Shown here piece by piece: positions 42,759 through 58,308 of a stretch of 64,000 nt of DNA. The DNA comes from Solimonas flava DSM 18980 (GTDB lineage: Bacteria; Pseudomonadota; Gammaproteobacteria; Nevskiales; Nevskiaceae). Location: positions 124,001 to 188,000 of the forward strand of contig NZ_AUFV01000009.1 in NCBI RefSeq assembly GCF_000426685.1. The letters are read 5' to 3'. The notes under the pieces were generated by a model. That model ran no database searches. It saw only the letters and a program-made list of their open reading frames with translations, and was not told where the DNA came from. Position 1 is the first letter of the stretch. Each line of letters begins with the position of its first letter. Position numbers and translations under genes: made by a program.

Positions 42759-44726
<1,968 letters not shown>

Positions 44727-44891: not shown

Positions 44892-46568
44892 TCAGTCGTT
44901 GGCGTGCAGCGAACTGCCCTTGGTTTCGCGCAGGAACAGCGTGCCGATCACCAGCGTCATCACCGCGACCACGATCGGATACCACAGGCCGTAGTAGATG
45001 TCGCCATGCAGGCTGACCAGCGCGAAGGCGATCGTCGGCACGAAGCCGCCGAACCAGCCGTTGCCGATGTGATACGGCAGCGACATCGAGCTGTAGCGGA
45101 TACGGGTCGGGAACATTTCGACGAGCCAGGCGGCGATCGGGCCGTAGACCATCGTCACGTACAGGACGAGCACCGTCAGCAGCACGATCAGCATCGGTTT
45201 GTTGATCCGCGCCGGGTCGGCCTTCTTCGGATAGTTGGCCGCCGCCAGTGCCTCGCCGAGCGTTTTACCGAACGCGCCGGTTTGTTCCTTGAACGCGGCC
45301 TTGTCGAGCGCCTTGCCGTCGAACGAGGACAACACGGTGCCGCCGATCTTGACCTGCGCGACCGTGCCGGCCGGCGCCGCTTCGTTCGCGTACGGCACGC
45401 CGGCCTTGGCGAGCGCGCTCTTGGCGATGTCGCAGGAGCTGTTGAAGACCTTCTTGCCGACCGGGTCGAACTGGAAGCTGCACTCCTTCGGATCGGCGAC
45501 GACGACCACCGGCGCGGTCGCGGCGGCGCCTTCCAGTGCCGGATTGGCGTAGTGGGTGATGGCCTTGAAGATCGGGAAGTAGGTCAGCGCCGCGAGCAGG
45601 CAGCCGGCCATGATCACGCTCTTGCGGCCGATGCGGTCCGACAGCCAGCCGAAGAAGATGAAGAACGGCGTGCCGATCAGCAGGCCGGCCGCGATCAGCA
45701 GGTTGGCCGTCGTCGCGTCGACCTTCAGCGTCTGCGTCAGGAAGTACAGCGCATAGAACTGGCCGGTGTACCAGACCACCGCCTGGCCGGCGGTCGCGCC
45801 GAACAGCGCGAGGATCACCACCTTCAGGTTCTTCCACTGGCCGAACGCTTCCGTCAGCGGCGCCTTCGAGTGCTTGCCTTCCTCTTTCATCTTCTTGAAC
45901 AGCGGCGACTCGTTCAGCTGCAGGCGGATGTAGACCGAGACCGCCAGCAGCAGCGCCGAGACCAGGAACGGAATGCGCCAGCCCCAGGCTTCGAACGCTT
46001 CGTTGCCGAGCGCGAGGCGGCAGCCGAGGATCACCAGCAGCGACAGGAACAGGCCGCCGGTCGCCGTCGTCTGAATCCAGCTCGTTGACTGGCCGCGGTT
46101 GTCGTCACGCGCATGCTCGGCGACGTAGGTCGCCGCGCCGCCGTACTCGCCGCCGAGCGCGAGGCCCTGCAGCAGGCGCAGCGAGATCAGGATCACCGGG
46201 GCGGCGACGCCGATCGAGGCATAGCTCGGCAGCACGCCGACCAGGAAGGTCGAGAGACCCATGATCAGGATCGTGATGAGGAAGGTGTATTTGCGGCCGA
46301 CCAGATCGCCGAGCCGGCCGAACACCAGCGCACCGAACGGGCGCACCGCGAAGCCGGCCGCGAAGGCGAGCAGCGCGAAGATGAAGGCGCTGGTGTCGTT
46401 GAGGCCGGAGAAGAACTGCTTGGCGATGATCGCCGCCAGCGAGCCATAGAGGTAGAAGTCGTACCACTCGAAGACGGTGCCGAGCGAGGACGCGAAGATG
46501 ACGCGCCGCGTCTCCGACTTGCTGATGGCGGGTGTGGTAGCGCCGAAGGCGCCGGCCGGACTGCTCAT
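44892..46568 (-). CDS. MHS-family (metabolite:H+ symporter) MFS transporter
   Basis: The 558-residue protein is an MFS carrier of the MHS group, related to ProP, KgtP and ShiA. It has SSLGTVFEWYDFYLYGSLA in helix 1, RPFGALVFGRLGDLVGRKYTF between helices 2 and 3, LALGGEYGGAATYVAE and GWLSDRIGRKSVIM. A roughly 110-residue insertion after about residue 345 contains two Cys (KECSFQ, SSCDIA) and faces the periplasm if topology is standard. The upstream sigma-54 promoter and shared GTTAC-n5-GTAAC site, and acs downstream, point to uptake of acetate or another carboxylate; the substrate is not proven. Confidence 0.9.
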   Translation of the reverse strand: MSSPAGAFGATTPAISKSETRRVIFASSLGTVFEWYDFYLYGSLAAIIAKQFFSGLNDTSAFIFALLAFAAGFAVRPFGALVFGRLGDLVGRKYTFLITILIMGLSTFLVGVLPSYASIGVAAPVILISLRLLQGLALGGEYGGAATYVAEHARDDNRGQSTSWIQTTATGGLFLSLLVILGCRLALGNEAFEAWGWRIPFLVSALLLAVSVYIRLQLNESPLFKKMKEEGKHSKAPLTEAFGQWKNLKVVILALFGATAGQAVVWYTGQFYALYFLTQTLKVDATTANLLIAAGLLIGTPFFIFFGWLSDRIGRKSVIMAGCLLAALTYFPIFKAITHYANPALEGAAATAPVVVVADPKECSFQFDPVGKKVFNSSCDIAKSALAKAGVPYANEAAPAGTVAQVKIGGTVLSSFDGKALDKAAFKEQTGAFGKTLGEALAAANYPKKADPARINKPMLIVLLTVLVLYVTMVYGPIAAWLVEMFPTRIRYSSMSLPYHIGNGWFGGFVPTIAFALVSLHGDIYYGLWYPIVVAVMTLVIGTLFLRETKGSSLHAND

Positions 46569-46635
46569 GGTGTTCTCCTCGATGTCGTTATGCCCGTGGC
46601 TGCGGTCTGCGCGCACGGTGTCGGACCTTGTGCTT

Positions 46636-46650
46636 GCAGAACCGATGCCA
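46636..46650 (-). promoter_or_regulatory. sigma-54 promoter of the MHS transporter
   Basis: On the minus strand CTGGCATCGGTTCTGCA has GG and GC separated by exactly ten bases, the -24/-12 pattern, with TGGCA intact and TTGC weakened to CTGC. Transcription would start near 46624, giving a leader of about 55 bases. Confidence 0.65.
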
Positions 46651-46703
46651 GCATCGAGGTTGAACGGAAACAGTGACTTGGCGATGACGCTCCGGGGCGG
46701 ACT

Positions 46704-46718
46704 GTTACCTAAGGTAAC
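46704..46718. promoter_or_regulatory. GTTAC-n5-GTAAC inverted repeat (activator site) before the transporter
   Basis: GTTACCTAAGGTAAC is a perfect palindrome about 87 bases upstream of the predicted start point, the usual position for an enhancer-binding activator. The same arms and spacing occur before the porin at 56917-56933. Confidence 0.65.
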
Positions 46719-46790
46719 GCGGTGTCACGAAACGAAAGCGGCGCGGCGACCGCTGGGGCCGACGCGCCGCAAGACCCACAGGGAACGGAC

Positions 46791-48184: not shown

Positions 48185-51100
48185 TTAGCGAAGCCGGCGC
48201 CGCAGGCCGAAGAGCGCACCAAGCGCCAGCAGGCTGCTCCACGGCAGCGCGCCGCCGTTGTGCTTGCGTCCGCCGCGTCCGCTCATGGCGACGGTCGCCG
48301 TCTCGTCGTGCGCGCCGGTGAGGGTCAGCGTTGCGCTGGACGCCTCGGTCGAGGCCGGCGTGAACTTCACATCGATCGTGAACGATTGGCCGGCCGCCAG
48401 CGCCGTCCCGTCTGCGACGCTCGAGTTGAAGGTGAACTCGGCGCCGTCGCTGTCGATCGACGACAGCGTGCAGCCGGGTCCGTCGGCGGCATTCTGGACC
48501 GTGATCTGCCGCGTCGCGCTGCTGCCTTCTCGTACCGTGCCGAAATCGAGCGTGCTGGGGTTCGTCTCGAACACACAGTCGTAATCGGCGGATCCGCTCA
48601 GCGCTACGTGCTGCACCGGTTGCGTGTCGTCGTTCGAATTCACGTCGAGTGTTCCGGTCGCCGGACCGGCCGCGGTTGGCGCGAAACTGAGCGTCACTTT
48701 GACGGTCTGGTCTTTCTCGACGAGCAACGGCAGCGTCGTCGCGCCGATCGCGAACGGTGCCGACGTGTCGAGCGAAGTGACGACACAGTTGTTGCCGCTG
48801 GCGGTGAGAGACAGTTCGGCCGTCGAGTTGCTGCCGCGTGCTGTGAAAGGAAACTCGACGCTCGAAGGCGCCACGGCCAGCGCACAAGGGACATAGCCCT
48901 CCATCGCCGACGTGGCCGGGCCGCTGATGCTGCCGACCACGTTGCGGATCGCCGAGCCGCCGTTGCCGAAGATCAGCAAGCCTTCGACGACGAACGGCGG
49001 CGGCAGGTTCCGCGCTACGATCTCCGTGGTCGGGAAGACCAGCGTCAGGACGTTGCTGCCGGCGGCTAGGCTCGTGGTCTTCTGCTGGAAGCCCAACTCG
49101 TCGCCAAACAGGCTGCTGAGCCTCGCCGAGTACGTGTAGGTGCCGGCGGCGTCCACCTCGACCGGGAAGGAGACCTCGATGGCTTCGATGCCATCGGTGC
49201 CGTTCTCGTCGATGCCGCGTGACGATTCGATGGCGCCGACCAGGACCGGGTTGTGCTCGAAGATGGTGTGGTCGTACGCGGGCGTGGTCCGCGTCAGCGT
49301 CGATTCGCCGACCAGTTGCGAGCTGTCGACGCGGATCGCGGTCGCTTTCGCGAGCGTGTACGGGCCGTTTTCGCCGCTCAGATACAGCTCGTTGCCCGGG
49401 AAGCTGAGCGCGCCGGATACCGCTTCGGCTGCGCCGGCCGTGAGACGGCCGACGCCGATGACGCTCTGTCCGCCTGATGTGTGCAATTCGCCACGGATGT
49501 CGTAGTCGCCCGGCGCCGGCGCCGCGAGCGTGACCGGTATCCGCAGTACGTCGATCAGACCGTTGCCGTTCGTATCGAGCGTGGTGACCGCGCTTGCCGT
49601 GTCACTGCTCAGGGTCACCGCGGGATCGATGACCGGGAACAGCACATTGCTGACGCGGGCGCCGCTTGCCGTCTGCGCCGTCAAGGTCATCAGTACGGTG
49701 CCGGCGGCATCGGGCCGGAGCACGCCGCTCAGGTCGCTGCCGTCGACGGTGAGCGGCACCGTTGCCTGGTGGGCGTCGGCGTAGGTGACCGTCACCGAGC
49801 CGCCGGTCAGCGCCAGCGCGGCGGCGTTACGCGTCATCGAGAAGCGCAAGCTCGTATCGGCGCCGACGACGCCGATTTCGGGCATCGCATAGATATACGC
49901 TGTGTCGCTCAGACCGGCGGGGAAAGCCGACAGTACGAGCTTGGTGTTCGCGGTCGTGCGCGTCGCTTTGACGATCACGCGCGCGGTGCCGGTCTGCGTC
50001 GAACTGATCGTGCCCTGGATCAGACCCAGCGAACCCAGTCCGAGATCGCCGATCGTGGCGCCGGTGCCCGATGTCGGCGTGACGATGTCGCCGTTCGGAA
50101 GGCGGAGGCTGATGTCGTACTGCGCGGGATCGCCGGCGAAGGCGATAGCGAACGATTCGCCGCCGCCACCGGCAAGCGGGAACTCGAGCGTCGCTTCCGC
50201 GCCGACGGCAACCGACGCCATCGACTGCGCGAGCATCACGGCGCCCATGTTGCCGTCGCCGGTGCCCGCCACCTTGCGCTTGGCGCTCGTGCCCTGCGCA
50301 TCCGCGGCGAGTGCGTAGCTGCGCAGATACTGGTCGTAGACCAGCCGCGACTTGTTCATGCCGGTGTGGCAGCTGTCGTCGCTGCTGCTGTTCAGTGGTC
50401 CGAGCTTGGTCGCATACGACAGGCCGTGTGCGCTGCCGAGCGGCACGATGCCGTCATTGTCGCCGAGCAGCCACGTCCAGCCCGACAGCAGGCAATTGCC
50501 GCCGGTATGCACGCCGGCGAACGAGATCGTCGGTACCGCGGGGTTGGCGCCATGCCGGGCGTTGAAGTACGCCATGTAGGTGGTCGACAGGTTGATCAGC
50601 GCGGGATTGAGGGCCGACGCCAGGACCCCGCCGAGCCAGTACTGGAGAACGGTGCCGACGTCGGCGGCCGGACTGCCCTTGTTGGGTGAACCGACCTGGA
50701 TCAGGCGCACGACATCGTCGTCGTAGGCGCCGCTCTCGATATAGCCGCGCGAGTCGAGGCCGCCCTTGGAGTGGCCGATCAGCTGTACGCGCTTGATGCC
50801 CCAGGCCTGCTTGTACGCGGCGATCTTGGATTTGATGTCGCCGGCGTTGTCGGCGATGGAGTCGAAGCCGCCGATGCTGATGTCCGAACCGGAATTCTGC
50901 ACGCCGTCGTCGTTGAGCCCCTGCAGCACTCCGCCGCCGGCCCAGGCGCCAGGCCCGTCGGACAGAAAGCCGTGCAGGAGCAGTGCGGGCACCGGGGCCT
51001 CGATCGTCACGGCAACCCAGTCGATGCCGGTGCACCAGTTCTCGTCCGATCCGCTGGCGGTATCGATGTCGATCTGCAGGACATTGTCGCCCGGGGTGCC

Positions 51101-51592
51101 GGCGCTGCCGAAGTGCAGCAGGCCGACCGGTACCTTGAACTCGTTCAGATACCAGGCGTTGTTGTAGCCGTTCAGATAGGGGCCGACGCCGGCGGCGTTG
51201 TTGACGTTCGTGCCGTTGAGCGAGATGAGGTCGCGTTCCGGCGGAGTCGAGCCGTCCCCGCCGTCGTAATCGACGTCATAGGCCGGGAAGAAGATGCGCG
51301 CAGTCGCGCCGAGGCCGCCCTTGGCGACCAGATTGGCGATGGTGTCGGAGAGCACGCGCGGAATTTTCAGCGTGATGACGAGCGGCCCGCCGCTGCGGAA
51401 GGTGCAACCGGTGTCGAGCCCGGAACCCGAGTTGACGACGAAGGTCGTGTCGCTCTCGACGGGCGGTGCGATATTCGACGTGGTGTTCTTCGGTGCAATC
51501 GACTTGGCATGAAGCGGTGGCGGCTGGTCACGGTCGGAAGCCGAGGCCACCCCTGCCGCCAGCATCAGCGACATCAGTAGAACGAAGCGCAT
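48185..51592 (-). CDS. large exported lipase-like protein with C-terminal sorting signal
   Basis: The 1135-residue protein has a signal peptide (cut after ASA, about 19), a lead domain, an alpha/beta-hydrolase domain (about 200-430) with LLHGFLSDGPG, nucleophile GHSKGG (Ser275) and GDNDGIVPLGS (acid), then several beta-sandwich repeats. The last two (about 930-1100) resemble choice-of-anchor D domains (VEFPFTARGSNSTAELSL and LDFGTVREGSSATRQI). It ends GGALPWSSLLALGALFGLRRRLR: a Gly-Gly, a hydrophobic helix and a basic tail, the layout of GlyGly-CTERM proteins processed by rhombosortase. Probably a cell-surface lipase or esterase. It is three bases after a coupled upstream gene. Confidence 0.85.
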   Translation of the reverse strand: MRFVLLMSLMLAAGVASASDRDQPPPLHAKSIAPKNTTSNIAPPVESDTTFVVNSGSGLDTGCTFRSGGPLVITLKIPRVLSDTIANLVAKGGLGATARIFFPAYDVDYDGGDGSTPPERDLISLNGTNVNNAAGVGPYLNGYNNAWYLNEFKVPVGLLHFGSAGTPGDNVLQIDIDTASGSDENWCTGIDWVAVTIEAPVPALLLHGFLSDGPGAWAGGGVLQGLNDDGVQNSGSDISIGGFDSIADNAGDIKSKIAAYKQAWGIKRVQLIGHSKGGLDSRGYIESGAYDDDVVRLIQVGSPNKGSPAADVGTVLQYWLGGVLASALNPALINLSTTYMAYFNARHGANPAVPTISFAGVHTGGNCLLSGWTWLLGDNDGIVPLGSAHGLSYATKLGPLNSSSDDSCHTGMNKSRLVYDQYLRSYALAADAQGTSAKRKVAGTGDGNMGAVMLAQSMASVAVGAEATLEFPLAGGGGESFAIAFAGDPAQYDISLRLPNGDIVTPTSGTGATIGDLGLGSLGLIQGTISSTQTGTARVIVKATRTTANTKLVLSAFPAGLSDTAYIYAMPEIGVVGADTSLRFSMTRNAAALALTGGSVTVTYADAHQATVPLTVDGSDLSGVLRPDAAGTVLMTLTAQTASGARVSNVLFPVIDPAVTLSSDTASAVTTLDTNGNGLIDVLRIPVTLAAPAPGDYDIRGELHTSGGQSVIGVGRLTAGAAEAVSGALSFPGNELYLSGENGPYTLAKATAIRVDSSQLVGESTLTRTTPAYDHTIFEHNPVLVGAIESSRGIDENGTDGIEAIEVSFPVEVDAAGTYTYSARLSSLFGDELGFQQKTTSLAAGSNVLTLVFPTTEIVARNLPPPFVVEGLLIFGNGGSAIRNVVGSISGPATSAMEGYVPCALAVAPSSVEFPFTARGSNSTAELSLTASGNNCVVTSLDTSAPFAIGATTLPLLVEKDQTVKVTLSFAPTAAGPATGTLDVNSNDDTQPVQHVALSGSADYDCVFETNPSTLDFGTVREGSSATRQITVQNAADGPGCTLSSIDSDGAEFTFNSSVADGTALAAGQSFTIDVKFTPASTEASSATLTLTGAHDETATVAMSGRGGRKHNGGALPWSSLLALGALFGLRRRLR

Positions 51593-52455: not shown

Positions 52456-53796
52456 TCAGCCGCGGCTGCGCGGCAGGTTCATCTTGCCGCGACGTTCCCA
52501 GAGCGTCTTGCGGCTGATGCCGAGCGCGCGCGCCAGATCGGACTCGGTCATCGCATCCTGATTGGCGAGCACGAACTGGCGGAAGTAGTCGTCAAGGCTC
52601 TGGCCGCTGCTGCCGCCCGCGGCGAATGGCGCGGCGGCGGCCGGCGCCGAGTCGGGAATCGCCAGATGCTCGGGCTCGATCGCGGGGCCGTCGCAGAGGA
52701 TCACCGCGCGTTCGAGCGCGTTGCCGAGTTCGCGCACGTTGCCGGGCCAGTCGTAGCGGCGGATCGCCGCGAGCGCGCGTTCCGACAGGCGCAATCCGCC
52801 GCGGCTCAGGCGCTGGGCAGCGCGCTCGAGCAGATGCCGGGCGAGCAGCTCGACGTCGTCGCCGCGCGCACGCAGCGGCGGCAGCGTGATCTCCATGACC
52901 TTGAGGCGGTAGTAGAGATCTTCGCGAAAGCTCTTGTCGCGCACCATCTGCTCCAGATCGCGGTGCGTCGCCGCGAGCAGGCGCACGTCGACGCGCCGCG
53001 ACTGCGTGCTGCCGACCGGGCGGATCTCGCCTTCCTGCAGCACGCGCAGCAGGCGCGACTGCACGCCGGGCGCCAGCTCGCCGACCTCGTCCATGAACAG
53101 CGTGCCGCCATGCGCGGCGGCGATCAGGCCGTCCTTCTTCTGCGTTGCGCCGGTGAACGCGCCCTTCTCGTGACCGAACAGCTCAGCCTCGATCAGGTTG
53201 TCGGGAATCGCCGCGCAGTTGACGGCGATGAACGGGCCATCCTTGCGCGCGCCGAGGTCATGGATCGCGCGCGCGACGAGTTCCTTGCCGGTGCCGGATT
53301 CGCCGCGGATCAGCACGGTGACGTCGGCGCCGGCGACGCGGCGCACGCGGTCGAAGACCTCGCGGATCGCCGTGCTGTTGCCGACCATGCCGAGCGTCGG
53401 ATAGTCGCGGCCGAGATCCTGCTTGAGCGCGGCGTTCTGCCGCGCCTGCAGGCCGCTCTTCAGGATGCGCGCGATCGTCAGCAGCATCTCGTCGTGATCG
53501 AACGGCTTGGCGATGTAGTCGGCGGCGCCGAGCTGCATGGCCTCGACCGCCGAACGGATGCTGGCGTAGCTGGTCATCACCAGCACCGGTGTCGGTGTCG
53601 CGCGCGGGATCAGATCGGTCCCCGGCGCGCCCGGCAGGCGCACGTCGGCGACGACCAGATCGAACTGCGACGGTCCGAGCGCCTCGGCCTCGGCGACACT
53701 GCCGGCTTCGGCGATCTGGTAGCCATGGCGCGCGAGCAGGCGGGCGAGCTGGCGACGGATGACGGCTTCGTCTTCGACGATGAGGATGCGGCTCAT
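52456..53796 (-). CDS. NtrC-family sigma-54-dependent response regulator
   Basis: The 446-residue protein has a receiver domain with phosphorylated Asp51 (VVADVRLPG) and Lys near 97, a central AAA+ domain with Walker A GESGTGKE (165-172), the sigma-54 contact loop GAFTGA (212-217), Walker B GTLFMDEVGEL, and a C-terminal Fis-type helix-turn-helix (SDLARALGISRKTLWERR). It activates promoters used by sigma-54. It starts nine bases after the symporter-kinase and is surely its partner. Two sigma-54 promoters with a common upstream element lie before the porin and the MHS transporter, the likely targets. Confidence 0.95.
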   Translation of the reverse strand: MSRILIVEDEAVIRRQLARLLARHGYQIAEAGSVAEAEALGPSQFDLVVADVRLPGAPGTDLIPRATPTPVLVMTSYASIRSAVEAMQLGAADYIAKPFDHDEMLLTIARILKSGLQARQNAALKQDLGRDYPTLGMVGNSTAIREVFDRVRRVAGADVTVLIRGESGTGKELVARAIHDLGARKDGPFIAVNCAAIPDNLIEAELFGHEKGAFTGATQKKDGLIAAAHGGTLFMDEVGELAPGVQSRLLRVLQEGEIRPVGSTQSRRVDVRLLAATHRDLEQMVRDKSFREDLYYRLKVMEITLPPLRARGDDVELLARHLLERAAQRLSRGGLRLSERALAAIRRYDWPGNVRELGNALERAVILCDGPAIEPEHLAIPDSAPAAAAPFAAGGSSGQSLDDYFRQFVLANQDAMTESDLARALGISRKTLWERRGKMNLPRSRG

Positions 53797-53805
53797 GTGG
53801 CGGTC

Positions 53806-56709
53806 TCAGGTCAGGATGCCCTGCAGCGATTCGGACGCCGCCGGCAGGCGCAGCGTGAACGTGGTGCCGGCGCCGGCATGGCTGTCGACGGTGATGCTGC
53901 CGCCATGGTCGGCGACGATGCGGAACACCAGCGGCAGGCCGAGACCGGTGCCGCGGCCGGGAGCCTTGGTGGTGACGAACGGCTCGAAGATGCGGTCGAG
54001 CAGCGCCTCGGGAATGCCGCTGCCCCAGTCCTGCACCTCGACGGTGACGCTGGCGGCGCCGCGCGCGGCGCGGATCTCGATGCGGCCGCCGGCCGGCGAG
54101 GCGTCGGCGGCGTTGGCGAGCAGGTTGAGAAAGACCTGCGTCAGGCGCGCGCGATCGCCATCGATCGCCAGCGCCGGCGGCACGCGGTTGACGAAGGCGA
54201 TGTCGCGGCCGGAGCGCGACAGGCGCACGAGGCGGATCGCCTCGTCGACCAGGGCGGCGAGATCGAGGCGGTCGAGCGTGCGCGTTTCCGGCGCCGACGG
54301 CCGCGCGAAGCTGAGCAGCGATTGCACGATGTCGCTGATGCGCCGCGACTGCGCGAGGATCTCGTCGATGCCCTGCTCGCGCTCGCGCGGATCGTCCTCG
54401 TCGCGCAGGTTCTGCGCGATGCACGAGATGCCGGTCAGCGGATTGCCGATCTCATGCGCGACGCCGGATGCCAGCGTGCCGATCGACGCCAGCCGCGCGC
54501 TGTGCGCGAGCTCGGCCTCGAGCTGCTGCTGCTCGGTGAGATCCTCGACCAGCAGCACCAGGCTGTCCGTCTCGCCGCCGGCTTCGCCGATCGCTTCCTT
54601 GTGCAGGTTCAGCCAGCGCGTGCGGCCGGCGAGCGTCGCCTGCTGCTTGTAGAGATGCGGCGTGTCGGCGGCGATCAGGCGCGTGAACAGGCCCTGCCAC
54701 GGCGGCGGCAGTTCGTCGACGCGCGCGCCGAGCATGGCGTCCGCCGGCAGGCCGGCGATCTCCGCCATGCGTTCGTTCCACAGCAGCACCTCGCGCTGCG
54801 GGCCGAGCGAGCACACGCCGACCGGCAGATCCTGCAGGATCTGGCGATGGAAGCGGCGCAGGTGGTTGAGCTCGGCGGCCAGGCCGCGCAGGCGATCCTG
54901 CGAATGCTCGAGTTCCTCCTCGACGAGTCGCCGCCGCGGCGCCGTGGCCTCTTCGCTGGCCAGCACTTCGCGCGCCAGTTGCGGGCCGATCAGGCCGGAC
55001 AGATTGCGCTGCAGGCGTTCGAGCAGGAAGTGCAGCTGGCGCGGCCGGCGCTCGGTGTCGTCGAGCTTGAGATCGGTGAGCGCACGCGCCAGCTCCGCCT
55101 GCGCGGCCTCCGGTCCGAGCGCGGCGTCGATGCGTGCGCGCAGCTCGGCGATGCCGAGCGCCTGCGGGCGTTCCGACAGCAGCAGCACGGCGTCGAGGCG
55201 GCAGGCCTGGTCGGCGGCCTGCTCCTTGGCGCTCGGGGCGGCGAGCAGCGAGCCGAGCGCGAACAGCAGCACGTTGACGGCGAGCGACCAGAACGTCGCG
55301 AACAGCCAGGGATCCTCGTCGTGCAGCGGCAGGCCGGCGAGCGGCGACGGCGAGCCGAAGGCCAGCGGCCAGACCAGGATCAGGAACCACATCGACATGC
55401 CGCCGCTGACGCCGGCGAGGAAGCCGACGCGGTTGGCGCGCGGCCAGCTCAACATCGCGATCACCGCCGGCAGGAACTGCGTGACTGCGCAGAACGAGAT
55501 CAGGCCGAGATGGACCAGGCCGGAGGTCTTGCGCATCGTCGCGTAAGCGCCGTAGCCGGTGAAGATGACCACGGCGATCAGCACGCGGCGGCCCCACAGC
55601 AGGCGCCGGTACAGATGCTGCGACGGCGGCGCGCCGCTGTTGACCCAGAGCGGCAGGATCAGGTGGTTGAGGCACATCGCCGCCAGCGCCAGGCTCTCGA
55701 CGATGATCATCGCGCTCGCCGCCGAGATGCCGCCGATGAAAGTCAGGAACGTCAGCCAGCCGCCGCCGCGCTGCGCCAGCGCCAGCGCGTAGTAGTCCGG
55801 CGGTACGTCGAGCCCCGACGCTTGCCCGGCCCACAGCAGCACCGGCACGGCGAGATTGAGCAGCAGCAGGAACAGCGGGAAAGCCCAGCTGGCGACGCGC
55901 AGGCCGTCGGGATTGATGTTCTCCGCAAACAGCATGTGGAACTGGCGCGGCAGCAGGAACGCGGCCGAGAACGCGAGCAGCAGCAGCGTCGTCCAGCTGC
56001 CCTCGCGCAGCGGCGCCTGCAGCTGCGCGACCGCCTGCGGATGCGCGGCGAGCCAGGCCTGCAGCTCGGCCGGGCCGCCGAACACGCCGAACAGCGCGAA
56101 CGCGCCGCAGGCCGCGAGCGCGATGAGCTTGATCAGCGACTCGAAGGCGATCGCCACGACCAGGCCTTCGTGCTTCTCGCGCGGCGTGACGTTGCGGGCG
56201 CCGAACAGCACCGCGAACAGCGTCACCGTCGCGCAGAACACCAGCGCCAGCATGCCGGTCGACGGTTCGCGCGTGAGCACCTGTGCCGAGCTGACGACCG
56301 CCTGGATCTGCAGGGCGATGTACGGCAGCACGCCGACCAGCATGCAGACCGTCACCAGCATGCCGGTCCACGGGCTCGAATAGCGGAACGCGAACAGATC
56401 GGCGAGCGAGGCGAGCTGGTAGTCGCGCACCAGGCGCAGCAGCGGTTGCAGCAGCACCGGCGCGAGCACGAAGGCCAGCGTCACGCCGACGTAGATCGTC
56501 AGGTACAGATAGCCTTGCGTCGCCGCGAAACCGGCGCTGCCGTAGAAGCTCCAGGTGGTGGCGTAGACGCCGAGCGAGAGCGCGTAGGTCAGCGGATGGC
56601 GGACCACGCGCTGCGGCAGCCAGCCCCGCTCGGCGGCGTAGGCGACGACGAACAGCACGGCCAGATAGCCGAGTCCGGCGAGGAACAGCTGCCAGAGTTC
56701 GGTCGTCAT
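53806..56709 (-). CDS. sensor histidine kinase fused to a sodium:solute symporter domain
   Basis: The 967-residue protein has a 12-13-helix SSS (PutP-like) symporter domain (about 1-500), a linker, a PAS domain (about 620-720), and a kinase core with GVAHEIGNPLTG (phosphorylated His752) and the ATP lobe DWGSGIPEALLDRIFEPF...GTGLGLPL. The design matches CrbS of Vibrio and MxtR of Pseudomonas, which sense acetate or related carboxylates and control acs. Its partner here is of NtrC type, not the LuxR-type CrbR/ErdR. The start overlaps the upstream small membrane protein gene as ATGA (56706-56709). Confidence 0.94.
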   Translation of the reverse strand: MTTELWQLFLAGLGYLAVLFVVAYAAERGWLPQRVVRHPLTYALSLGVYATTWSFYGSAGFAATQGYLYLTIYVGVTLAFVLAPVLLQPLLRLVRDYQLASLADLFAFRYSSPWTGMLVTVCMLVGVLPYIALQIQAVVSSAQVLTREPSTGMLALVFCATVTLFAVLFGARNVTPREKHEGLVVAIAFESLIKLIALAACGAFALFGVFGGPAELQAWLAAHPQAVAQLQAPLREGSWTTLLLLAFSAAFLLPRQFHMLFAENINPDGLRVASWAFPLFLLLLNLAVPVLLWAGQASGLDVPPDYYALALAQRGGGWLTFLTFIGGISAASAMIIVESLALAAMCLNHLILPLWVNSGAPPSQHLYRRLLWGRRVLIAVVIFTGYGAYATMRKTSGLVHLGLISFCAVTQFLPAVIAMLSWPRANRVGFLAGVSGGMSMWFLILVWPLAFGSPSPLAGLPLHDEDPWLFATFWSLAVNVLLFALGSLLAAPSAKEQAADQACRLDAVLLLSERPQALGIAELRARIDAALGPEAAQAELARALTDLKLDDTERRPRQLHFLLERLQRNLSGLIGPQLAREVLASEEATAPRRRLVEEELEHSQDRLRGLAAELNHLRRFHRQILQDLPVGVCSLGPQREVLLWNERMAEIAGLPADAMLGARVDELPPPWQGLFTRLIAADTPHLYKQQATLAGRTRWLNLHKEAIGEAGGETDSLVLLVEDLTEQQQLEAELAHSARLASIGTLASGVAHEIGNPLTGISCIAQNLRDEDDPREREQGIDEILAQSRRISDIVQSLLSFARPSAPETRTLDRLDLAALVDEAIRLVRLSRSGRDIAFVNRVPPALAIDGDRARLTQVFLNLLANAADASPAGGRIEIRAARGAASVTVEVQDWGSGIPEALLDRIFEPFVTTKAPGRGTGLGLPLVFRIVADHGGSITVDSHAGAGTTFTLRLPAASESLQGILT

Positions 56710-56894
56710 CGCGGCGCGCGCGTGCGCAGGACGGCGATGGCGGCGATCACCGCGAACCAGGCCGCGTACAGCCACCACCACGGCCGGCCGGCGCCGGCCC
56801 AGACCCACAGCCCCGGCGGCAGCAGCACGCCGAGGGCGATCAGAAACAAGATCACGGCGCGGTCGTTGCCGCTGCCGCCGCTATCGCGCTGCAT
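56706..56894 (-). CDS. small membrane protein upstream of the symporter-kinase
   Basis: The 62-residue protein has two membrane helices (about 13-32 and 36-57, including ILFLIALGVLLPPGLWVW and WWWLYAAWFAVIAAIAVL). Small two-helix proteins are known beside symporter subunits such as those of the acetate permease type, where they may be accessory subunits. Here its stop overlaps the kinase start. The ATG at 56894 is chosen because GAGGAGAA lies before it; the ATG at 56915 would put that site inside the gene. It is likely a partner of the symporter domain. Confidence 0.75.
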   Translation of the reverse strand: MQRDSGGSGNDRAVILFLIALGVLLPPGLWVWAGAGRPWWWLYAAWFAVIAAIAVLRTRAPR

Positions 56895-56916
56895 GGCGCG
56901 TTCTCCTCTCCGCATC

Positions 56917-56933
56917 TGTTACCGAGCGTAACA
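56917..56933. promoter_or_regulatory. GTTAC-n5-GTAAC inverted repeat between kinase operon and porin
   Basis: TGTTACCGAGCGTAACA has the same arms and five-base spacer as the site before the transporter (46704-46718). It is about 132 bases upstream of the predicted porin start point and only 23 bases from the start of the small membrane protein, so one bound regulator could drive the porin and also affect its own operon. Confidence 0.65.
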
Positions 56934-57030: not shown

Positions 57031-57045
57031 TGGCATGCGGCTTGC
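57031..57045 (+). promoter_or_regulatory. sigma-54 promoter of the DcaP-like porin
   Basis: TGGCATGCGGCTTGC has GG (57032-57033) and GC (57044-57045) ten bases apart with TGGCA and TTGC both intact. Start of transcription would be near 57057, with a leader of about 50 bases to the ATG. Confidence 0.75.
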
Positions 57046-57108
57046 CCCTTCATCGTTGCACCGGCGCTTTCCGTGCCGGCGACGACATAACAAGCTGGAG
57101 GAGACTAG

Positions 57109-58308
57109 ATGAACAAGCTAGGCATAGCCGCCGCTGCCGGCGTGCTGTTCGCGGCGCACGCCGCGCAGGCCGCCGAGACCAAGTTCGGCGATACCAACGT
57201 GACGATCGGCGGATACGTGAAGCTCGACGTGCTCGCCAGCCGCTTCTCGGACGGCGAGGTCGGCCAGGGCACGGCGCGCGACTTCTACGTGCCGAGCGCG
57301 ATCCCGGTATCGGGCGGCAGCGGCGAATCGCACAGCACGCTCGACCTGCACGCCAAGGAAACGCGGCTGTTCATCAAGACCGACACGCCGGTCGAGGGCC
57401 ACAAGCTCGGCACGCTGATCGAGTTCGACTTCATCAGCGGCCAGATCAGTCCGACGATCAACAATGCGGCGAGCGGCGCCGGCAACGAGAACACCACCAA
57501 CGCCTACAACCCGGCGCTGCGCCGCGCGTACATCACCTTCGACAACTGGTTGTTCGGCCAGGACTGGACCACGTTCATCAACCTCGGCGCGATTCCGGAG
57601 ACGCTGGACTTCGTCGCCTTCCCGTCGGAAGGCACCGTCTTCGCACGCCAGCCGCAGGTGCGTTACACGAAAGGCGGCTTCGCGATCGCGCTGGAGAATC
57701 CGCAGACCACGGTCGCCGGCGTCGGCGCGACCGACGACAACATCGTGCCGGACGTCACGGCGCGCTACGGCTTCAAGCTCGGCAGCGCCGAACTGAACGT
57801 GGCCGCCGTGCTGCGCCAGCTCAAGATCGACAATGCCGCGGTCGCCGGTCCGCCGGCGGTGCCGGCGCGCGACGACACCGCGTTCGGCGGCGGCGTCAGC
57901 GTCTCCGGCAAGATTCCGCTCGGCAAGGACGACATCCGCTTCATGCTGACCGGCGGCGACGGCATCGGCCGCTACGTGGCGCTCGGCACCGCGACCGACG
58001 CCGTGCTCGACGGCACCGACCTGAGCACCGTGCCCGTCTACGCCGGCTACATCGCCTACCGCCATCCGTGGACCTCGCAGCTGCGCAGCTCGCTGGCGAT
58101 CTCGGGCCTGAGCGTCGACAACGACGAGAATCTGGTGAACACGGCGACGACGACCAAGACGGTCTACAGCGCCGCCGTCAATCTGCTGTACTCGCCGGTC
58201 AAGACGCTGACGCTCGGCGCCGAGTTCCGCCACGCGCATCGCGAGGTCGAGAACGGCGACGACGGCAATCTCGATCGCCTGCAGTTCTCCGCCAAGTACA
58301 TGTTCTGA
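57109..58308 (+). CDS. DcaP-like outer-membrane porin
   Basis: The 399-residue protein has a signal peptide (cut after AQA, about residue 21), TNVTIGGYVKLDVLAS and ESHSTLDLHAKETRLFIKTDTP, then a beta-barrel pattern ending in Phe (SAKYMF), as in DcaP family porins first named in Acinetobacter for dicarboxylate uptake. It is the probable channel by which carboxylates reach the periplasm. The ATG at 57109 follows GGAGGAGA. A sigma-54 promoter and enhancer-like site lie upstream, next to the kinase/regulator operon, so it is likely a main target of that system. Confidence 0.9.
   Translation: MNKLGIAAAAGVLFAAHAAQAAETKFGDTNVTIGGYVKLDVLASRFSDGEVGQGTARDFYVPSAIPVSGGSGESHSTLDLHAKETRLFIKTDTPVEGHKLGTLIEFDFISGQISPTINNAASGAGNENTTNAYNPALRRAYITFDNWLFGQDWTTFINLGAIPETLDFVAFPSEGTVFARQPQVRYTKGGFAIALENPQTTVAGVGATDDNIVPDVTARYGFKLGSAELNVAAVLRQLKIDNAAVAGPPAVPARDDTAFGGGVSVSGKIPLGKDDIRFMLTGGDGIGRYVALGTATDAVLDGTDLSTVPVYAGYIAYRHPWTSQLRSSLAISGLSVDNDENLVNTATTTKTVYSAAVNLLYSPVKTLTLGAEFRHAHREVENGDDGNLDRLQFSAKYMF

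Follow-up and report, generated by a model that had tools for sequence, protein, structure and literature searches.

Known systems and the Solimonas locus

In Pseudomonas putida and Pseudomonas aeruginosa, the genes cbrX, cbrA and cbrB are described in this order, with the small cbrX open reading frame (ORF) overlapping cbrA (PDB 10ed; PMC6591292, PMC13022988, PMC6296734). The P. putida cbrX gene is reported to encode a 58-residue peptide with two predicted helices, to overlap cbrA by 17 nucleotides (nt) and to be translationally coupled to it (PMC6591292, PMC8871633). A 2026 preprint based on cryo-electron microscopy (cryo-EM) places CbrX against transmembrane helices TM3 and TM8 of the SLC5 domain of CbrA, and according to this latest structural paper it is unresolved what triggers CbrA and what CbrX does (PMC13022988). 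CbrAB has been called exclusive to Pseudomonads (PMC6296734; also PMC8871633, there by conserved synteny including crcZ). Here we describe a related gene set from Solimonas flava DSM 18980, found in a 64,000-nt stretch of its genome (RefSeq assembly GCF_000426685.1, contig NZ_AUFV01000009.1, positions 124,001 to 188,000), hereafter called the window. The three genes probably constitute a CbrX-CbrA-CbrB-type system whose regulator binds palindromes with a five-base spacer (N5) and drives sigma54 promoters, with a short carboxylate as the likely cue.

Other kinases that carry SLC5 and STAC domains have been characterized. The CrbS/CrbR systems (also MxtR/ErdR) have acetate genes as targets; CrbS is described as a hybrid kinase that itself contains a REC domain, and the DNA motif of the system is a different one (PMC5715377). 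The CrbS partner is of the LuxR type, whereas the regulator adjacent to the window kinase is a sigma54 activator. RpuS/RpuR of Sinorhizobium controls a carboxylate symporter, and the terms NtrC and small protein are absent from the text of its description (PMC9100948). In the open-licence literature, surveyed mostly by listing, there was no CbrXAB system outside Pseudomonas or Azotobacter, no N5 palindrome and no CbrX-like protein accompanying another kinase class. CbrA-like kinases beyond Pseudomonads, the N5 palindrome before cbrX and acetate-linked sigma54 targets look new.

Domain content of the three genes

The window's gene set (Table 1) was first recognized in a sequence-only reading of positions 53806-56894, which described a two-helix protein of 62 residues joined by ATGA to a symporter-kinase, with an NtrC-type regulator next to it. 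Sequence and Pfam searches agree with this description. The ATGA lies at 56706-56709 on the minus strand, where the kinase ATG overlaps the TGA of the small ORF, and the regulator gene sits just beyond the segment then considered. A longer small frame of 69 residues could begin at an ATG at 56915; the start at 56894 is preferred because an AGGAGA-like ribosome site sits between the two.

Pfam matches PAS, HisKA and HATPase domains in the kinase. No Response_reg match, as expected of a hybrid kinase with a C-terminal REC domain, was found there. Pfam SSF is also unmatched at E ≤ 0.1. The full symporter domain postulated earlier is nevertheless present, because residues 3-583 align to the SLC5-STAC chain of CbrA (10ed_A) with an E value of 4e-164 and 49% identity. 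The regulator has Pfam REC and sigma54-activation domains, and its helix-turn-helix (HTH) region is close to those of Pseudomonas-type regulators. Two sigma54 genes are present in the genome.

The locus shares with CbrXAB its gene order, the SLC5-STAC-PAS-kinase architecture, the NtrC-type sigma54 partner, residue K196, a similar HTH and the half-sites TGTTAC and GTAACA. The sequence-only reading had set the NtrC-type partner apart from the described CrbR/ErdR partners. Such a partner is not new, since CbrA and CbrB already pair an SLC5 kinase with such a partner downstream of an overlapping cbrX (PMC6591292, PMC13022988). The real differences lie elsewhere. The ORF overlap is 4 nt rather than the 17 nt reported for P. 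putida (PMC6591292), the ligand pocket differs, one N5 palindrome just before cbrX replaces separated subsites, and a porin and a transporter/acs pair are the proposed targets.

No pcnB gene follows cbrB in the six Solimonas loci with 5 kb of downstream sequence, a count that includes the window's near-copy in its closest named relative, Solimonas variicoloris (98%; locus L010), and leaves out the window itself. An Rfam scan of the window, covering a database that we take to include CrcZ, brought no family to threshold. In the strict sense of synteny, with crcZ included, the window system is a relative and not a member of CbrAB. In two CbrA-like loci of the comparative set, L116 and L121, an AAnAAnAA-rich stretch of the kind expected of crcZ (11 and 14 motifs per 700 bases) lies between cbrB and pcnB.

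Three classes of SLC5 kinases

An SLC5-domain search of 370 gammaproteobacterial genomes returned 93 matches, spread over 74 of them. The strong matches (>400 bits) are CbrA-like kinases and occur in 41 of the 370, including the window's own genome and at least one Pseudomonas-like genome (G145); the remainder form a weaker group. Loci were fetched for 90 matches, with L001 standing for the window's own and two fragments from G313 omitted. Another 36 loci (L009-L044) were added from 45 found, the other nine having matched in the kinase part only. The fragmented copy L043 is excluded from counts, while L010, which shares the window's small gene, and L087, which shares the kinase of L024, are retained unless stated.

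These loci fall into a CbrA-like class (75 loci), a second class with open frames of 893-1030 residues (20 loci) and a third with frames of 984-1342 residues (31 loci), the minimum being that of L162, which is truncated by a contig end and was placed by hand. A tree of 124 SLC5 rows, built by a quick method, places all 73 CbrA-like rows, P. putida CbrA included, to the same side of a branch with support 100 (SH-aLRT, the Shimodaira-Hasegawa-like approximate likelihood ratio test). Another branch (support 99) has the CbrA-like and second classes together to one side; L123 forms a long branch whose placement is unsure. The third class is probably CrbS-like, judging by length and acetate neighbours. 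Second-class kinases are found about 7-14 kb from a CbrA-like kinase in three genomes (G055, G012 and G274).

Partner genes differ among the classes. In 69 of the 75 CbrA-like loci, the same-strand gene closest to the kinase is of the NtrC type, seen only as a short frame in L032 and L118. Four of the six exceptions (L034, L036, L038 and L074) break off close to the kinase; L015 and L041 leave space for such a gene and show none. No second-class kinase has its own NtrC gene in the fetched stretch; the one in L122 is part of a CbrA-like system close by. In 11 of the 20 second-class loci, the kinase has a REC-bearing ORF next to it in the same orientation, and the two that were scanned (L127, L143) contain Response_reg only. 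A short REC gene follows the kinase in L127, L137, L143, L146, L151 and L123, and in some loci the next gene encodes an exonuclease-domain protein (RNase_T by a scan of L127) or, as in L143, a DUF294/CBS protein.

The small CbrX-like protein

A PDB search with the single small-protein sequence returned nothing useful, and a profile was needed to reach CbrX. Built from the window's small protein and 24 relatives, 25 sequences in all, it matches chain 10ed_X with an E value of 2.9e-12; the runner-up stands at 0.85. An AlphaFold2 model of the window protein has helices at residues 9-34 and 40-59, at modest confidence (mean predicted local distance difference test score 67). Codon-position changes relative to Solimonas soli (9, 6 and 12 at positions 1, 2 and 3) are uninformative alone.

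A CbrX-like ORF precedes the kinase in all 73 CbrA-like loci that have upstream sequence (worst profile E value 4.5e-10). Of these, 38 come from other genomes and took no part in profile building; L020 and L120 begin at a contig edge and lie outside the count. This regularity means that the small ORF is not a chance frame, and conservation of the frame with the kinase was the point on which the sequence-only reading had staked its case. Of the 20 second-class loci, 19 (all except L134) have, at the kinase start, an ORF whose product contains two hydrophobic stretches. These ORFs match the CbrX profile weakly (11 of 20 at E ≤ 0.05). Profile-profile comparison by hhalign is stronger, joining them to the CbrX-like family at 97.6% (E value 4.7e-12), against at most 4% for reversed controls and at most 1.2% for a YgaP-TM control. 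The third class, which by inference includes CrbS, gave no CbrX-profile match at E ≤ 10 in its 31 loci. There, a hydrophobic ORF lies upstream in L156 and ORFs with one hydrophobic stretch in a few others, none matching the profile.

The expectation that such a protein always sits before symporter-kinases holds for two classes, with no profile match in the third. Its association with NtrC partners holds for the CbrA-like class and breaks down in the second, which retains the small ORF. The earlier proposal of a helper for a sensory symporter stands insofar as the protein is a homologue of CbrX, and CbrX physically contacts the SLC5 domain in 10ed. The parallel with transporter subunits is positional only. 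Like CbrX, the DUF4212 subunits of SSS transporters are short membrane proteins encoded near an SLC5-family protein, but descent from them was rejected, as hhalign gives 0.1-0.8%, a level that the reversed controls and the YgaP-TM control (0.6-1.2% for the latter) also reach. YjcH/DUF485 and YhdT/DUF997 are further small subunits of this kind; one DUF485 sequence passed the cut-off in the search for them, and no DUF997 sequence did. Pfam DUF983 was likewise discarded as the identity of the protein (16.5 bits, with a cut-off of 22.6).

The small ORF might instead be a mere translated leader that opens the cbrA start, its peptide having no role of its own. The short overlap, 4 or 11 nt at all 30 measurable loci out of 36 (L009-L044), would suit such a leader. 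So would reports from P. putida, which also count against a subunit role for CbrX: a frameshifted CbrX of equal length gave near-normal CbrA, the altered sequence still permitting CbrA production, and CbrX proved dispensable for growth on histidine (PMC6591292, PMC13022988). The leader explanation is doubtful all the same. Conservation extends beyond the frame to side chains, with P27, W32 and W39 invariant in the 25 sequences, and the ORF is present at every CbrA-like locus where it could be seen. A related ORF also precedes the second kinase class, and the cryo-EM structure has CbrX ordered on the SLC5 domain (PMC13022988). We infer that the Solimonas protein, too, is a subunit of its kinase.

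Ligand pocket and acetate-related neighbours

Pocket positions were defined as the residues described as lining the modelled histidine in CbrA (PMC13022988). The window kinase has T53, S56 and A248 where 10ed has S53, A56 and F248; it retains Y51, W55, Y75, K196 and F406, and F71 is replaced by Y. The S53/A56/F248 combination is limited to 10ed, L116, L119 and L121, with S53 alone in L100. All remaining readable CbrA-like rows have T53, T or S56, and A or S248. Second-class kinases have T53, T56, and A or S248, and those of the third class mostly T53, T56, and A, G or S248. P. putida CbrA falls in a group of 12 rows (support 88) within the CbrA-like branch, and in the other, 8-row half of that group (L026, L027, L030-L032, L039, L042 and L113) every row has acs near cbrB. 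This distribution suggests, without amounting to proof, that histidine sensing is derived within the CbrA-like clade.

Acetate-related genes occur in 40 of 74 CbrA-like loci (acs in 15, a VC_2705-type symporter in 16, DUF294/CBS in 11, another SSS symporter in 3). We assume that VC_2705-type symporters carry acetate. Genes of these types also lie near kinases of the second class (9 of 20) and third class (11 of 31), DUF4212 being counted in both figures; some DUF4212 matches near kinases were in a wrong reading frame and were not used. A short carboxylate, acetate or a similar acid, is the likely cue because many neighbouring target genes in the wider family serve acetate uptake or activation.

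Alternatively, the system could sense histidine or general carbon limitation as in Pseudomonas, the acetate genes being only neighbours. The common domain order and the presence of K196 in all 124 SLC5 rows are compatible with this, and P. putida CbrA is reported to take up histidine (PMC7918813). It is unlikely to hold for Solimonas. The Pseudomonas-type pocket is confined to the few rows named above, palindromes with sigma54 elements lie 5' of acetate genes in CbrA-like loci, and the Rfam scan of the window was empty.

A proposed palindromic operator

The pattern TGTTAC-N5-GTAACA was searched with at most one mismatch, and spacings of 0-30 were scanned. It occurs upstream of cbrX or the kinase in 49 of 75 CbrA-like loci, compared with 0 of 21 (the second class and L162) and 0 of 30 other loci. 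The only other spacings in CbrA-like loci are 15 and 25-28, in nine loci, where they share a half-site with the spacing-5 site; the second class shows a single half-site pair, at spacing 8. In 38 of 45 measurable loci the operator ends 17-43 nt 5' of the cbrX start, the exceptions being L028, L039, L104 and L112-L115. At up to two mismatches the window has two palindromes, with a mean of 0.05 in shuffled windows.

Both half-sites are identical to subsites published for CbrB of P. putida, TGTTAC (F) and GTAACA (R), which are described as non-palindromic, with centres 20-25 bp apart (PMC6296734). This separated layout is found 5' of a sigma54 element in L116, whose kinase is 82% identical to 10ed, and the regulators have similar HTH regions.

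Eleven Solimonas-genus genomes provide a further comparison. Four of them carry the kinase at E ≤ 1e-100 (G000, G375, G378 and G384). The porin operator is present in the same four and in none of the seven kinase-less genomes, and perfect palindromes anywhere in the genus occur only in these four. A one-mismatch palindrome at L226 1501-1517 recurs in L228, L231, L234 and L236, so that five genomes of the genus have it, some carrying the kinase and others not. In L226 its neighbours are a frame for an OmpR-type regulator and a small EF-hand-like one. The palindrome has no sigma54 element and was set aside as an operator.

It is very unlikely that the palindrome belongs to another regulator that shares these promoters by chance: P. 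putida CbrB does bind separated, non-palindromic subsites (PMC6296734), palindrome binding outside Pseudomonas is a prediction, and one-mismatch copies (of the L226 type and others) occur in the kinase-less genomes G377, G380 and G382, for which reason such copies alone prove little and count against the proposed operator, but the half-sites are those of CbrB, the kinase-upstream palindrome is restricted to CbrA-like loci (0 of 51 others), perfect genus copies track the kinase, and pairing with sigma54 elements fits an NtrC-type activator.

Sigma54 elements and candidate targets

Away from cbrX, 33 further palindromes occur in 635,606 bases of CbrA-like loci and none in 357,597 bases of other loci. 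Two-thirds (22 of 33, in 18 of 27 loci) fall within 1.2 kb 3' of cbrB. Fifteen, in 12 of 27 loci, have a sigma54 element (at most one mismatch) within 160 bp, always on the downstream side, with tandem palindromes sharing one element. Of 2880 positions drawn at random, 12 have such an element within 160 bp; the inclusion of coding DNA among these positions is a weakness of this comparison.

In Solimonas, the operator, the porin-directed sigma54 element and the porin are all present in six of six loci (L009-L014). The operator and sigma54-like element before the major facilitator superfamily (MFS) transporter are found in the window (L225) and in two other Solimonas genomes (L229, L233). The acs gene is perhaps in one operon with this transporter, given the common strand and a 165-bp gap.

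Table 1. Positions of the cbrXAB-like genes, proposed regulatory sites and candidate targets in the window
Feature	Position	Strand	Description
cbrX-like gene	56706..56894	-	62 residues, two-helix membrane protein; ATG start; profile match to PDB 10ed chain X
cbrA-like gene	53806..56709	-	967 residues, SLC5-STAC-PAS-HisKA-HATPase kinase, without REC match
cbrB-like gene	52456..53796	-	446 residues, REC, sigma54-activating AAA and Fis-type HTH
Palindrome TGTTACCGAGCGTAACA	56917..56933	.	Proposed CbrB-type operator, 22 nt 5' of cbrX; sole perfect copy in the 4.46 Mb genome
Sigma54 -24/-12-like porin promoter TGGCATGCGGCTTGCC	57031..57046	+	One mismatch; kept across the genus, alone no more than chance in 64 kb
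DcaP-type outer membrane porin	57109..58308	+	Divergent, proposed target; PF19577, E 1e-18
Second palindrome	46703..46719	.	One mismatch; 5' of transporter gene
Sigma54-like element TGGCATCGGTTCTGCA	46635..46650	-	Two mismatches, GG-N10-GC retained; layout shared with L229 and L233
Metabolite/H+ symporter (MFS)	44892..46568	-	Proposed target; TIGR00883, under its cut-off
acs, acetate--CoA ligase	42759..44726	-	TIGR02188, 1003 bits, over cut-off

Proposed mechanism

The CbrA SLC5 domain, linked via STAC to PAS and kinase domains, would carry CbrX as a two-helix membrane subunit packed on its surface, and the overlap with cbrA would couple translation of the two. The ligand state of SLC5, of PAS or of both may set kinase activity, and phosphate would then pass to the CbrB-type regulator. 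This protein is predicted to bind the 17-bp palindromes and to activate sigma54 promoters about 60-100 bp away. Its candidate targets in the window are the divergent porin and the MFS transporter next to acs. A palindrome copy stands right before the cbrX start, where the regulator would probably limit its own operon. In P. putida, the level of CbrA is reported to be independent of CbrA and CbrB (PMC6591292).

Several further observations weigh against this mechanism. Kinase classes, pattern and thresholds were fixed only after an initial look at the data. The palindrome is missing at up to one mismatch from 26 of the 75 CbrA-like loci, two of which lack upstream sequence, and kinase-bearing G384 has the porin operator and no transporter operator at this threshold. 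By the rule applied, 18 of the 33 further palindromes have no sigma54 element. The element before the transporter has two mismatches, and the sigma54 pattern at up to one mismatch is no rarer in the window than in shuffles (2 seen, 1.29 expected), so the evidence there is one of conservation. Among cbrX-proximal palindromes, a sigma54 element is nearby only in Solimonas, and the role of such sites in other genera is therefore a guess. Acetate genes are absent from the fetched stretch of 34 of 74 loci, including six Solimonas loci; this means little because downstream stretches are short (under 2 kb in eight loci, about 2-5 kb in the rest). The window's acs gene is 9 kb from the kinase, and 5 loci have ABC solute-binding genes and 2 have pcnB as alternative neighbours.

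On a broader reading, about which we are evenly divided, Pseudomonas CbrAB would be a derived offshoot of a widespread gammaproteobacterial CbrXAB system for acetate response with palindromic sigma54 enhancers. CbrX would then be an ancient subunit of a symporter-kinase clade that includes the second class, without an NtrC partner. This would correct the published view of CbrAB as Pseudomonad-exclusive (PMC6296734, PMC8871633). With their differing pocket, simple palindromic operator and acetate genes close by, the relatives described here make the trigger of CbrA testable by pocket comparison. The role of CbrX is similarly testable by comparing kinase classes with and without a CbrX-like ORF.

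Additional observations

ABC solute-binding genes lie upstream of the CbrA-like loci L112, L114 and L115 and downstream in L100 and L105 (Peripla_BP_6 in L105), and perhaps mark another substrate branch. Elsewhere in the window, a minus-strand frame of 1135 residues (48185-51592) has weak lipase-like matches in its N-terminal part and ASH/HYDIN-type immunoglobulin repeats at its C-terminus.

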